A stretch of DNA of 64,000 bases. Source: Lentzea kentuckyensis. Lineage in GTDB: Bacteria; Actinomycetota; Actinomycetes; Mycobacteriales; Pseudonocardiaceae. The DNA is taken from NCBI RefSeq assembly GCF_002150765.1, contig NZ_MUYM01000050.1:1-64000 (forward strand), written 5' to 3'. Below are positions 17,739-22,344 of the stretch, one piece after another (positions within the stretch are counted from its first letter, which is position 1; every line of letters starts with the position of its first letter). The translations under genes were made by a program, and so were the position numbers. The notes under the pieces are model-generated. The model was given only the letters and a program-made list of their open reading frames with translations. It was not told the origin of the DNA and did not search any database.

Positions 17739-17757
17739 GCGCTCTCCTTGACCGCCG

Positions 17758-17775
17758 TTCGAACATGTGTTCGAA
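17758..17775. promoter_or_regulatory. Perfect SOS (LexA) box in a divergent promoter
   Basis: TTCGAACatgtGTTCGAA is an exact 7-bp palindrome around ATGT and matches the actinobacterial LexA consensus TCGAAC-N4-GTTCGA. It lies in the 45-bp gap between the pnuC GTG (17738) and the proposed GTG start (17784) of the radical SAM gene. This argues against the upstream TTG at 17748 as that gene's start, since the box would then be coding. From memory, the mycobacterial homologue Rv2578c is in the LexA regulon; that should be verified. Confidence 0.75.
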
Positions 17776-17783
17776 TCGATGAT

Positions 17784-19760
17784 GTGCGATGGGACGGACA
17801 GAAACTCGAGGCAGAGCCGCAGCAGGCACTACCGGGGCTACCGGGACTGGTGCGCAGCGTACGAACTCCTGAGTTCGCGGACGTGGTGTTCCACGAGGTC
17901 CGCGCCAAATCCGTGCTCAACGGGGTACCGGGTTCGTCGCTGCCCTTCTCGTGGACCGTGAACCCGTACCGGGGCTGCTCACACGCCTGCACCTACTGCC
18001 TGGCGGGCGACACCCCGATCCTCATGGGCAACGGCCGCACCAAGCCGTTGGCCGAGCTGCGGGAGGGCGATGAGATCTACGGCACCGAACTCGTCGGCAA
18101 CTACCGGCGTTACAAACTCACGACCGTTCTCGCGCATTGGGAGACGCGCAAGGACGCGTACCGGCTGACGCTGGAGGACGGCACGTCGGTGATCGCGTCC
18201 GGTGATCACCGCTTCCTGACCGACCGCGGCTGGAAGCACGTGACCGGCGAGACCGCGGGCACGGGTCGCCGTCCGCATCTCACGACCGGCAACAAGCTGA
18301 TGGGCACGGGGGCTTTCGTCGAGCAGCCCGCCGTGACCGACGACTACCGCCGCGGCTACCTGCGCGGCATGGTGGACGACGAGAACGAGTTCCGGATCCC
18401 CTTGGCCGACATAGAGGCCATGGACCGCACACAGGAGTATCTCGACTACTTCGGTGTGCGAGAAGGGAGTGGATTTCTGCACCAAGTGCGCGAGCTCGCG
18501 CACTGGCAGATAGCCCCGAACCCGGACTGGCTCAAGGGATTCCTGGCCGGTGCGTTCGACTACCTCGGGACCTGCTCGCGCAGCATCCTGCGCCTGTCGA
18601 CGCGCAACGCCACGATGCTCGAAGCGATCTGCCTGGCGCTCAAGCACTTCCACTTCGACTTCGCGATCGAGGAACTGCGCCGCCGTCGTGGCGTGCGGGT
18701 CGTGCGACTGCGCGGCGGGTTGCGGGAGAACCTGCGCTTCTTCCACACCGTCGACCCGGCGATCACGCGCAAGCGGGACATCGACGGCGTGGCGATCAAG
18801 TCGCAGCAGCCGCTGGGCGTCGTGTCCGTGGAACCGTTGGGGGAGATGACGCTCTACGACATCTCGACCGGCACGGCCGACTTCATCGCGAACGGCGTGG
18901 TGTCGCACAACTGTTTCGCCCGCAAGACCCACACCTACCTGGATCTGGACTCGGGCAAGGACTTCGACAACCAGCTGATCGTCAAGGTCAACGCCGGGGA
19001 GGTGCTGTCGCGTCAGCTGCGGTCGTCCAAGTGGAAGCAGGAGCACGTCGCGCTGGGCACCAACACCGACCCGTACCAGCGGGCGGAGGGGCGGTACTCC
19101 TTGATGCCAGGGATCATCGAGGCCCTGACCGCCTCCCGCACGCCCTTCTCGATCCTGACGAAGGGCACCCTGCTGGCCCGTGATCTGCCGCTGCTGTCCG
19201 CCGCGGCCGAGGTCGTGCCGGTCGGGATCGCGGTGTCGCTCGCGTTGATGGACCGCGATCTGCACAGGTCGCTGGAGCCCGGCACGCCGACGCCGGCCGC
19301 GCGGCTGGACCTGGTGCGGAAGGTGCGGGAGGCCGGGTTGCCCTGCGGGGTGTTCGTGGCTCCTGTGCTGCCCGAGCTGACGGATTCCGTTGAGCAGCTG
19401 GACTTCCTGCTGGAACAGATCGCCGCGGCCGGGGCCACGGGCGTGACGGTGCTGCCGTTGCACCTGCGTCCGGGAGCGAAGGAGTGGTTCGCGGCCTGGT
19501 TGCGCCGCGAGCATCCCGACCTCGTCGAGACGTACCGGCACCTGTACGGCAGAGGGTCCTATGTGGACAAGCGGTACCGGAAGTGGTTGACCGCGCGGGT
19601 CGTTCCGTTGATCGAGAAGCACGGACTGGCGCCGCGGGGCAGGTCCACCGACGCCGTCACCGGTGTGCCCGGTGACGACGAGGGCGTGTGGCCCGACGGC
19701 AGTCTGCCGGTGGGTGTGCCGGCGCCGCGCGTGGATCAGGAACAGCTCACTCTGCTCTGA
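17784..19760 (+). CDS. Intein-containing Rv2578c-family radical SAM protein
   Basis: A radical SAM protein of the Rv2578c family interrupted by an intein. After splicing the host protein would be about 353 residues with the motif CSHACTYC (C-x3-C-x2-C). The third Cys is the +1 Cys (after HN), restored by splicing. The downstream core includes GTNTDPYQRAEGRYSLMPGI and DLPLLSAAAEVVPVGIAVSL. Members are SplB-like and linked to DNA damage responses, but the substrate is not known. I chose GTG 17784 (VRWDGQKL) over TTG 17748 because the SOS box lies between. The 3' end overlaps the convergent zinc-ribbon gene by 14 nt. Confidence 0.85.
   Translation: MRWDGQKLEAEPQQALPGLPGLVRSVRTPEFADVVFHEVRAKSVLNGVPGSSLPFSWTVNPYRGCSHACTYCLAGDTPILMGNGRTKPLAELREGDEIYGTELVGNYRRYKLTTVLAHWETRKDAYRLTLEDGTSVIASGDHRFLTDRGWKHVTGETAGTGRRPHLTTGNKLMGTGAFVEQPAVTDDYRRGYLRGMVDDENEFRIPLADIEAMDRTQEYLDYFGVREGSGFLHQVRELAHWQIAPNPDWLKGFLAGAFDYLGTCSRSILRLSTRNATMLEAICLALKHFHFDFAIEELRRRRGVRVVRLRGGLRENLRFFHTVDPAITRKRDIDGVAIKSQQPLGVVSVEPLGEMTLYDISTGTADFIANGVVSHNCFARKTHTYLDLDSGKDFDNQLIVKVNAGEVLSRQLRSSKWKQEHVALGTNTDPYQRAEGRYSLMPGIIEALTASRTPFSILTKGTLLARDLPLLSAAAEVVPVGIAVSLALMDRDLHRSLEPGTPTPAARLDLVRKVREAGLPCGVFVAPVLPELTDSVEQLDFLLEQIAAAGATGVTVLPLHLRPGAKEWFAAWLRREHPDLVETYRHLYGRGSYVDKRYRKWLTARVVPLIEKHGLAPRGRSTDAVTGVPGDDEGVWPDGSLPVGVPAPRVDQEQLTLL
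17997..18911 (+). other. Intein (305 residues) with LAGLIDADG-type homing endonuclease domain
   Basis: The intein begins at Cys (17997-17999, CLAGDTPIL) and ends at His-Asn (VVSHN, to 18911), with Cys as the +1 residue. Block B is SVIASGDHRFLTDRGW and block F is YDISTGTADFIANGVVSHN. Two LAGLIDADG-like helices are present: GYLRGMVDDENE and GFLAGAFDYLGT. The second has Leu where the catalytic acid is expected, so endonuclease activity may be lost while splicing residues look intact. It sits exactly at the third cluster Cys of the radical SAM motif. Confidence 0.88.
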
Positions 19761-21855
19761 TCTTCCCGAGCTCTGGCTCAGTGAAGTGCTGGACTCCGCG
19801 GGCACCCTCTTCCCCAGGGTGCTTCACGCTCCGCCTCAGCTTCCACCCCTTCTTCAGATTGCAGGAGCGGCATCCCGGCCGCCTGCGGGTCTGCGGTGCC
19901 ACCGTCCACTCGTGGCCGCACGTGCATCTCCACAAGCACTTGAACTTCGTTCCTGGCGTCAGGGTCTGCGCTGTCAGTTCGGGGCGATCGACGCAGGCGA
20001 TGAACTCGGCGGCGATCTCCGGACGCACTTCGGCGAGGCTCTTCTTGGCACTGTTTTGACGCCGCCGGTCCCACCCTGCCTTTGAGTTGCACGATTCGCA
20101 CCACGGCCGCTTCCGGTCCGCGGCCACCGCAGTCCAGTTGTGGCCGCATCTGCCGCAACACCAGGAACACTCGTACTTCGAGTGCGGTTTGAGCGTGTGT
20201 GTTGTCAGTTCTGGCCGGTCGATGCAGGCTAAGAACTCGGCCGCGATCTCCGGGCGCTTGTCGGCGAGTGCTTCACCAGGCTTCGCGATACCGCGGCTCT
20301 TCCAACCTTCGGCCTGCGCGCAGTCGGGACATCTCGTGCCGTTGGGCTTCGACCTGTTGTTAGCAAGGGCTTCCCATTCATGCCCGTGGTCGCAGAGCCA
20401 CCGACACCGAAGCTCCGCACCGGGTTTCATCGTGTGCTCCGTCAGTTCGGGGCGATCGATGCAGGCGACGAACTGGGCGGCAAGATCGGGACGCCGGTCG
20501 GCGAGTGACTCGCCCGGTGCGGCGATGGCCCTCTCCCTGGCTTTGCGACCCCGTGCGGCGCGGTCGCAGTCCGGACAGCCAGTGCCCTGCGGCTTTGTGC
20601 GATCCCTGACCTTCGTTTCCCATTCATGCCCGTACACACACCGCCACCGGCACTTGTCCCCAGCGCCCGGCGGAAGCATGCAGAGCTCGACACCCGGACG
20701 ATCCTTGTTGATGACGAACTCCGCGGCCAGTTGAGGCGTGGCGTCGAGTGCGGACACCTTCGGCCGAGAGCCGGGGAGCTCGAACCAGCGCAGGGTGGCG
20801 CGGTGGACGGCCTCGGCTTGCTCCGCGTCGGTCAGGTCGCGCCACGGCAGTCCGCGGTTCGTCAGTTCGTGTGCCAGCGCTTGCGCCCATTCCCACGGCC
20901 TGTACCAGGGTTCGTTTTCGGCGACCACGATCGACCGAGGGATGAGTGGTGCGTTCGTCGACCTGATGCGCACGTATTCCGCGTCCGCCATCGCGTCGTT
21001 CTTGCGCAGGTCGGCAGGAAGCTTGTCGGGGCCGTGCGTGAAGTCGGGATCGAGGTCGACGAACAGGTCGATCGCCGGCAGGTGCAGGTCGACTCGCACC
21101 TTGTTGCCCTTCGCGACAGGGCGGCGGGCGTCGACCTCGATCTCGGCCCCGGTCGCGGCCATCAGCAACTCGGCGATCTTCAACTCCAACAGGGACGTCC
21201 CTGCCGTTCCGCATCCAGGGCACCCGTTCCTGGCGCGGCTCTTGACGACGATCTCCCGCTCGTGTCGCAGCGGACATCGCCAGACGCACCTGTCGTTCGA
21301 CCCGTAGCTCAGCTGGTCGGGCGTGCTGCCGGGGCTCGTGAGGTTTCGGACGAACTGGGCGGTCAGATGCGGATGGGTGTCGGCGAGCGACCTGCCTGGC
21401 TTGGGCTTGCGGCGGGCTGCGCCGGCACGTGCGGCTCCGCAGTCCGGGCAGCCGCTTCCCTTGGTGCGGGTGTTGAGGCGCATCGGATAGTCGCTATGTC
21501 CGGAGGGACAGCGCCACAGGCATTTCACCTCGGAGCCGGAAGGAATGTCGTGCAGGCTGCGGTGGGATTTCTTGACGAACTCGACGAACTCCGGCACCAG
21601 GTGCGGGCGGGCCTCAGCGAACGAGACCTGGCCTCGGCAGGACAGGGTCGGGCACACGCGCCCGCGGCCTTTCGTCCGCTCTTCCGGCCGGGCCGGCCAC
21701 GGCTTCTCACACGTCGGGCAGAGCCAGGTGCAGTCGAGGCCTGAGTTTGGGCTGAGCAGGTCCGGTGTCAGCTCCGGGTACTTCACGCAGCCGACGAACT
21801 CGGGCACCAGGTGCGGGAAGAGTGCGGCGATTGACTTCTCACGGGGGACCACCAC
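19747..21855 (-). CDS. Seven-repeat zinc-ribbon (DUF4379-like) protein with PD-(D/E)XK-like nuclease domain
   Basis: A 702-residue protein (start GTG 21855; GTG 21864 and upstream starts are possible). It has seven copies of a treble-clef zinc ribbon with pattern C-x-W-x-C, then (C)GHEW, then C-P-x-C. They lie at about residues 7-73, 77-139, 156-215, 366-430, 449-512, 528-589 and 606-665. Between repeats 3 and 4 (about 221-304, genome 20944-21197) lies a domain with LLELK, VRVDLHLPAIDLFVDLDPDF and DLRKNDAM...YVRIRS, which reads like a Vsr/DUF559-type endonuclease fold. Such DUF4379 proteins are seen in actinobacteria without known function. The last three repeats share ACIDRPELT-type segments, suggesting recent duplication. 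A nucleic-acid-targeting role is an inference. Confidence 0.8.
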   Translation of the reverse strand: MVVPREKSIAALFPHLVPEFVGCVKYPELTPDLLSPNSGLDCTWLCPTCEKPWPARPEERTKGRGRVCPTLSCRGQVSFAEARPHLVPEFVEFVKKSHRSLHDIPSGSEVKCLWRCPSGHSDYPMRLNTRTKGSGCPDCGAARAGAARRKPKPGRSLADTHPHLTAQFVRNLTSPGSTPDQLSYGSNDRCVWRCPLRHEREIVVKSRARNGCPGCGTAGTSLLELKIAELLMAATGAEIEVDARRPVAKGNKVRVDLHLPAIDLFVDLDPDFTHGPDKLPADLRKNDAMADAEYVRIRSTNAPLIPRSIVVAENEPWYRPWEWAQALAHELTNRGLPWRDLTDAEQAEAVHRATLRWFELPGSRPKVSALDATPQLAAEFVINKDRPGVELCMLPPGAGDKCRWRCVYGHEWETKVRDRTKPQGTGCPDCDRAARGRKARERAIAAPGESLADRRPDLAAQFVACIDRPELTEHTMKPGAELRCRWLCDHGHEWEALANNRSKPNGTRCPDCAQAEGWKSRGIAKPGEALADKRPEIAAEFLACIDRPELTTHTLKPHSKYECSWCCGRCGHNWTAVAADRKRPWCESCNSKAGWDRRRQNSAKKSLAEVRPEIAAEFIACVDRPELTAQTLTPGTKFKCLWRCTCGHEWTVAPQTRRRPGCRSCNLKKGWKLRRSVKHPGEEGARGVQHFTEPELGKIRAE

Positions 21856-21943
21856 ATGAGCCACTCTGCTGCGGTGATCATCCAACTCTGCGGGCACGGC
21901 TGGACCATAGCGACGAGCACCGACAGAAAACCGAGCCCTCGAG

Positions 21944-21978
21944 GTGAGGTGCCTGATTGGCGTGATCAGGCACCTCAC
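21944..21978. terminator. 14-bp hairpin after the SnoaL-like gene
   Basis: GTGAGGTGCCTGAT (21944-21957) and its reverse complement (21965-21978) flank a 7-nt loop. It lies 12 nt past the stop of the minus-strand SnoaL-like gene and about 90 nt upstream of the zinc-ribbon start, so it probably ends the upstream transcript. On the minus strand a short T run (GGTTTTC) follows some 13 nt later. Confidence 0.55.
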
Positions 21979-21990
21979 GCGGTCCAGGGT

Positions 21991-22344
21991 CTAGGCCCAG
22001 CCGCCCTGGACCATCGTCTGGAACTGCCACTCGCCGCCGACCTTCACCAGAAGGTCGCCGTAGCGAACCGTCATCCCGTTGATCGTTCCGTCCGTGATGA
22101 CGAAGACCAGGTTGTCGTTGATGAAGTGCGGCGTGCGCACGGACTCCATCTGCACCTCACCGCCCAGTTGGGCCCCCATTTCGGTCAGGAACCGCTCCCG
22201 GTCCCACGACGTCGCCGAGCCGTCGGTGACGGTGTTGATCGGGAACAGGGCCATGTCGGCCATTTTCTCGACCTCTCCCACCACCGCGAGCTCGTCCCAG
22301 GTTGCGAACCACTGCATGACCTCGTCGTACGACATACCGTACAT
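21991..22344 (-). CDS. SnoaL-like (NTF2-fold) protein
   Basis: A 117-residue alpha+beta protein with the pattern of the SnoaL/NTF2-like superfamily: an N-terminal helix (YDEVMQWFATWDELAVVGEVEKMADM), then beta strands ending VRYGDLLVKVGGEWQFQTMVQGGW. Members include ketosteroid isomerases, polyketide cyclases and uncharacterised stress proteins; the cavity residues cannot be judged here. ATG codons at 22344 and 22335 are both possible, with no strong ribosome-binding site. It starts 7 nt after the DUF4082 gene stop on the same strand, so coupling is likely. Confidence 0.72.
   Translation of the reverse strand: MYGMSYDEVMQWFATWDELAVVGEVEKMADMALFPINTVTDGSATSWDRERFLTEMGAQLGGEVQMESVRTPHFINDNLVFVITDGTINGMTVRYGDLLVKVGGEWQFQTMVQGGWA

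Follow-up and report, generated by a model that had tools for sequence, protein, structure and literature searches.

A putative DNA-damage-inducible nuclease cassette with a zinc-ribbon array in Lentzea kentuckyensis and other Actinobacteria

Introduction

CapR/DUF4379/DUF723-like domains occur together with EDxHD/Vsr-like domains in homing endonucleases of phage group II introns, a group that the pages describing it call a large unrecognised outgroup of the EDxHD/Vsr endonucleases (PMC12350094, NAR 2025). The MTES_1575 family is listed as a Vsr-type REase in the relevant section of PMC3710099. The RecA-NDp promoter, which is bound by PafBC (PMC8223512, PMC6789036), has the consensus tTGTCRgtg - 8 nt - TannnT (PMC5656591) or, alternatively, TGTCGG-10N-TA-3N-T (PMC8151990), as given in the parts of these papers that deal with promoter sequence.

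Here we analyse a gene from Lentzea kentuckyensis in which these elements are found together. The window is the whole stretch of DNA under analysis, 64,000 nucleotides of contig NZ_MUYM01000050.1. Proteins of the DUF4379 plus EDxHD/Vsr, homing-endonuclease-like kind were already in print in 2025; what is new is the link to the promoter, the placing of the cassette boundaries at this promoter, and a clade with a DLDP active site.

Results

The single 702-residue protein proposed for positions 19747-21855 in the original prediction is present and is encoded by the minus strand, where the open frame yields the 702 residues; plus frame 1 over the interval has stops. The quoted motifs are found in the translation. 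Because the frame remains open further upstream, and because the promoter position and the homologues point there, the upstream GTG is the likely start (Table 1). Residue numbers below refer to the longer protein; subtracting 14 gives the earlier numbering. GC3 is 80.6% in the nuclease gene versus 87.8% and 93.5% in two neighbouring genes.

Table 1. Features of the nuclease locus, in window coordinates
Feature	Position	Strand	Remarks
RecA-NDp/PafBC-type DNA-damage promoter	21904..21925	(-)	TGTCGGTG-N8-TATGGT; ends 6 nt before the GTG start
Nuclease gene	19747..21897	(-)	716 aa from GTG 21897; previously 702 aa from 21855
Zinc ribbon 1 (DUF4379)	21631..21777	(-)	Pfam match
Zinc ribbon 2 (DUF4379)	21436..21573	(-)	Pfam match
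Zinc ribbon 3 (DUF4379)	21208..21363	(-)	Pfam match
EDxHD/Vsr-type nuclease core (predicted)	20893..21204	(-)	E238, D270, D281, D283, H288, D296, K299; DLDP variant of the usual E-x-D-G
Zinc ribbon 4 (DUF4379)	20560..20730	(-)	Pfam match
Zinc ribbon 5 (DUF4379)	20314..20451	(-)	Pfam match
Zinc ribbon 6 (DUF4379)	20083..20217	(-)	Pfam match
Zinc ribbon 7 (DUF4379)	19855..19989	(-)	Pfam match
C-terminal tail resembling the end of a DUF4865 gene	19747..19821	(-)	Presumed remnant of a former site occupant, read in frame
Stretch absent from G020 (L064)	19761..21986	.	G020 has 42 bases here instead
Left neighbour, intein-bearing radical SAM protein	17748..19760	(+)	Convergent, with tail-to-tail overlap; shows no link to the nuclease gene
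Right neighbour, 117-aa ORF	21991..22344	(-)	No Pfam match

Pfam DUF4379 (PF14311) matches seven stretches of the protein (E 1.5e-60, 201.6 bits against a curated cut-off of 24.5). This supports the treble-clef/zinc-ribbon array of DUF4379 type that had been read from the sequence, and the positions of the matches bear out its layout, with three ribbons N-terminal and four C-terminal of the middle domain. Identity is 54-58% for the neighbouring pairs 5-6 and 6-7, 43% for 5-7 and 21-46% for the other pairs. The further claim that the last three ribbons look recently duplicated is partly right; the duplication is not new to the window genome, since seven DUF4379 matches are also found at L122, a locus of another genus. 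At locus L042 three ribbons could be read after the nuclease. A model of the full-length protein reached a pLDDT of 80.6 with a pTM of 0.39, so that the arrangement of the ribbons cannot be read from it; pLDDT falls below 50 at residues 684-704, where the tail joins. The final ~24 residues look host-derived: two relatives have a DUF4865 gene at this site whose tail is similar, and L042 and L122 lack these residues.

In the middle domain, the columns S, E, D, D, H, D, R and R are invariant among 18 aligned relatives, window included, a chosen set that leaves out several near-identical Streptomyces loci, L043 (which has an X) and L039. The pattern EDxHD (E238, D270, D283, H288 and D296) is kept in all 18. 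The members of one clade, to which the window protein belongs, read DLDP in place of the usual E-x-D-G. A classical PD-(D/E)xK motif is not found: D281-x-D283 is present, but the K of LLELK, which had been taken for part of a (D/E)xK motif, is not conserved, and this reading consequently fails in favour of EDxHD. A profile of the 18 relatives gave one match below E 0.4 in the PDB, the homing endonuclease I-Bth0305I (3r3p, E 2.6e-4). The window protein by itself had no PDB match better than E 0.51, and its nuclease segment matched no Pfam family; among the 18 relatives, Pfam matches were to MTES_1575 (12), DUF559 (6) and, weakly, Vsr (1).

An AlphaFold2 model of the core, built from 13 clade sequences (pLDDT 86.2), has the order helix-strand-strand-strand-helix-strand. 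VIA-align 2 aligned it with Bax1 (Z 9.8), I-Bth0305I (8.5) and Vsr (7.0), values which lie little above the stated chance range of this tool and which, near 8, can reflect a common arrangement. Foldseek found no PDB match at E <=0.001, the best being Bax1 at 2.4e-3. Family profile, Pfam matches of the relatives, predicted fold and structural alignment all speak for an embedded nuclease-like domain of the Vsr/DUF559 kind, as originally predicted, with an alpha-beta-beta-beta-alpha-beta core in the model and invariant acidic and histidine positions; neither of the outcomes named beforehand as refuting that prediction was seen. On alignment and model together, the middle domain is of the EDxHD/Vsr nuclease type and retains its active-site residues. 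The whole protein also matches phrog_559, 'HNH endonuclease' (E 2.5e-22). This label was not followed, because the matched stretch takes in ribbons and the nuclease segment alone gave one weak PHROG match (E 0.16).

A RecA-NDp/PafBC-type element stands at a leaderless distance before the nuclease start (Table 1), and it matches the published consensus exactly except for the first, lower-case t, which is a c here. We searched for TGTCR-N11-(T/C)AnnnT located 3-15 nt before an in-frame start. This pattern was present at 15 of 21 distinct loci of the DLDP clade, at 1 of 21 other DUF4379 nucleases and at none of 24 DUF559-type controls, and the reversed pattern at none of 67 loci. The motif is not a general property of DUF4379 nucleases, given the single case outside the clade. 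The six clade loci counted as lacking it include L051 and L092, with near-miss motifs, and L036, with the motif at the wrong distance. A first grouping had given 14/21 for the DLDP type and 2/22 for the E-x-D-G type, before L097 (same region as L051) was dropped and L122 (DLDP type) moved; without L048, nearly a copy of L034 (99.4% identity across the locus), the clade count is 14/20. The 15 hits are not independent events, since they fall into related groups: a trio that includes the window, a Streptomyces set and a Geodermatophilaceae set. The upstream sequences of these groups are alike in the motif only. At fixed starts, 14 of 17 loci carried the motif, versus 0.02 on average, and never more than 1, over 300 shuffles. 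The -10 position has a strict T in only three of the 15 (window, L042 and L122) and a C in the remainder.

The genome to which the window belongs contains the strict motif 23 times, versus once for the reversed control; in 11 of these 23 cases the longest ORF start follows at a distance of 6-9 nt. Nine proteins encoded behind strict motifs were scanned: UvrD, DNA ligase, RecQ, a proteasomal ATPase (32 nt away), DinB_2, a YgjP/SprT-like peptidase, two OrfB_IS605/TnpB proteins and one without a family. The relaxed motif occurs 7 times across the whole window versus 3.7 expected, which is unremarkable by itself. Since the gene brings its own DNA-damage promoter, it is probably DNA-damage-inducible, and cells with broken DNA would then produce the nuclease.

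The same genomic scan showed a strict motif 9 nt before the starts of both OrfB_IS605/TnpB genes (L102, G000:C27:7575-7596; L108, G000:C113:17541-17562), mobile nucleases of the RNA-guided type that also look damage-inducible from their sequence, and another 6 nt before a long ORF without a Pfam family (L111, G000:C192:147062-147083).

In the closest relative, G020, which is 95% identical around the site, the nuclease gene is absent and window positions 19760 and 21987 correspond to 5065 and 5108. All 13 relatives read, among the 23 of the genus, have the flanking genes without the nuclease; the gap between these genes is 39-83 nt in nine of them, holds a DUF4865 gene in two, and holds inserts of 743 and 1302 nt in two. 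Promoter and ORF are a recent arrival at the window site. Because the last residues of the window protein resemble the DUF4865 tail, the cassette appears to have replaced a DUF4865 gene and to read into its remnant. Homology between the window and L122 begins three bases outside the promoter, at 21928, and extends to 19833. For the window clade this is the only occupied site known. Between the radical SAM gene and the 117-aa ORF (19760-21991; L064-L076) the genus is variable, the interval being empty or occupied by DUF4865 or by other inserts. The radical SAM neighbour has a weak Pfam Intein_splicing match and a full-length match in 24/24 genomes of the genus.

Members of the DLDP clade were found at 14 loci in Saccharopolyspora, Frankia, Janibacter, Streptomyces, Blastococcus, Klenkia and Modestobacter, as well as on Streptomyces plasmids, on a Rhodococcus plasmid and at L122, in a genome of the window's family. 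The Saccharopolyspora copy sits among integrase genes. Such proteins are rare: 5 of 394 genomes in a sample of the class match at E <=1.3e-40 and 4 more match weakly, and among 24 genomes of the genus a strong match is confined to the window's own genome, with one other genome matching weakly. Two scans of viral contigs yielded no clade member, and a single phage record gave a match, at 25.5% identity; a phage origin was rejected on these grounds. Relatives of the E-x-D-G type have the nuclease either in the centre (L027, L038, L041, L129) or at the C-terminus (L029, L030, L031, L033, L039, L040). L033 (G000:C57) is a paralogue in the window genome, with an E-x-D-G active site, a C-terminal nuclease and no damage motif. 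L129 (835-3255), a DUF4379 nuclease of the E-x-D-G type, combines a central nuclease with eight ribbon matches and has a damage motif 6 nt before its start.

Insertion sites differ from clade to clade. The Streptomyces copies have in common a sharply bounded unit of ~1.7-1.8 kb with 87-92% identity, and the shared part starts at the TGTC element. The flanks of L034 are unrelated to those of L035, L045, L047 and L049, and other Streptomyces copies share one flank. Neither inverted repeats nor target duplications were seen by eye in the aligned Streptomyces ends, and two plasmid searches for an empty site gave flank matches and no clear empty site. Promoter and ORF behave as one conserved unit whose flanks differ. 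A second, inverted and broken cassette that retains the promoter motif lies on the same Streptomyces laculatispora plasmid as L035 (L035:2624-4450).

In a set of 112 Geodermatophilaceae genomes, some match was found in 12 and an orthologue (E <=2e-142) in 7. All seven orthologues, under three genus labels, adjoin the same transglycosylase-like gene, which is present in 102 of 108 genomes searched; at nine unoccupied loci that were read, no such nuclease gene was found at the site. The G210 copy is split into two frames, and the G206 match runs through a stop, its 552-aa frame holding most of the protein. Identity between these nucleases is 44-69%, with a rho of 0.08 with the downstream flank (six loci) and 0.17 with the upstream flank, versus 0.53 between the two flanks (6-7 loci). 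This sequence pattern agrees with repeated, homing-like arrival at a single site; repeated loss combined with fast evolution could imitate it in a sample of seven.

Nei-Gojobori dN/dS is 0.15-0.20 for six Streptomyces copies, 0.17-0.22 for the window trio and 0.25-0.30 for three Geodermatophilaceae copies, where it reaches 0.55 in the nuclease core. Selection on the nuclease gene is purifying.

Discussion

The damage promoter and the cassette-like behaviour of the locus together suggest a mobile nuclease linked to DNA damage. With a confidence slightly above even, we favour a gene-sized mobile cassette encoding a DNA-damage-inducible endonuclease, as sequence comparison and structural models suggest. 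Once the DNA-damage response is on, PafBC would switch on the nuclease gene; the ribbons would read a long DNA target and position the central domain, which would cut or nick it. Repair of the break by recombination, at a time when repair proteins are abundant, could then copy the cassette into sites lacking it, and this homing-like spread is the least certain step. We are more hesitant about a generalisation that in our judgement falls somewhat short of an even chance: that there is a class of actinobacterial self-spreading nuclease cassettes with their own PafBC promoter, which would cut and be copied only when the host recombination machinery is induced, and whose ribbon arrays, of variable length on both sides, would act as modular DNA readers aiming the central nuclease.

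The same promoter stands before UvrD, DNA ligase and RecQ genes in the window genome, and the protein might accordingly be a host-serving repair nuclease of the PafBC regulon, Vsr-like, whose ribbons find damaged or mismatched DNA that the central domain nicks, with horizontal spread being incidental. Purifying selection fits a host-serving role as well, and so does the structural likeness to Vsr and to Bax1, the partner nuclease of XPB. However, one would expect to find a core repair factor widely, whereas this gene is rare in the class, is strongly matched within the genus in a single genome and occurs as gene-sized units at many sites. We regard the repair role as rather unlikely. A role as an accessory nuclease against phages, switched on when an attack damages DNA, appears improbable too. 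Homologues in defence islands had been raised as a point to check. Gabija genes adjoin L049 (GajA E 9.5e-203, GajB 8.8e-182), with diverged pairs at L045 and L035 and a weak match at L046; L047, which shares the L045 flank by DNA, is followed downstream by Lamassu genes. In contrast, the window protein matches none of the PADLOC model families. Its ten neighbours gave two matches only, to the methyltransferase part of mad2 and to Type II methyltransferase models, which does not support a defence island at the window; a single weak match came from nine Geodermatophilaceae neighbours, and the L042 neighbour had no match. The outcome of the viral-contig scans bears little on defence.

That the clade reads DLDP where E-x-D-G is usual could indicate a binding protein with a dead nuclease fold. 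We consider this very unlikely, as E, D, D, H and D have all been retained, the change from E to D is conservative, and the core is under purifying selection in the Streptomyces and window groups. Free-standing EDxHD enzymes occur beside split inteins, and the intein-bearing radical SAM gene overlaps the nuclease gene tail to tail, which brings to mind a collaborative homing endonuclease of that intein. This idea is largely refuted and hardly credible: the neighbour is matched over its intein-bearing length in all 24 genomes of the genus and the nuclease in one, and the radical SAM gene was not seen at L042 or L122 in the stretches read.

A damage-linked mobile cassette would be a case, accessible to experiment, of a mobile nuclease coupled to the DNA-damage response of Actinobacteria, and would offer a reason why such cassettes switch on when recombination is possible. 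The ribbon arrays, whose number varies between close homologues, may be a natural modular means of reading DNA. Genes annotated only as 'zinc-ribbon domain-containing protein' thereby acquire a hypothesis for both function and regulation. A literature search, with subscription journals mostly outside its scope, found no paper joining PafBC and homing endonucleases and none on a 'DNA damage-inducible' homing endonuclease in Actinobacteria.

Among known systems, the phage intron enzymes resemble the window protein in joining several zinc-ribbon-type domains of ~60 aa to an EDxHD/Vsr-like nuclease; as described in PMC12350094, they have three to five such domains and a C-terminal nuclease and lie inside introns. 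The window protein differs from them in its seven ribbons, central nuclease, free-standing gene, DLDP active site and own RecA-NDp promoter. I-Bth0305I (PDB 3r3p) has the same acidic and K positions as the window domain in the aligned part, but is an intron-encoded phage enzyme for which no DUF4379 array is reported, whereas the window nuclease is a free-standing bacterial gene. Vsr, DUF559 and MTES_1575 are of the same fold class as the window domain, although the window segment itself matches neither DUF559 nor MTES_1575, and Vsr is not known to carry a zinc-ribbon array. Finally, the PafBC/RecA-NDp regulon of Actinobacteria, known for repair genes in the parts of the literature consulted, has a promoter consensus identical to that at the nuclease start (PMC5656591, PMC8151990, PMC8223512).
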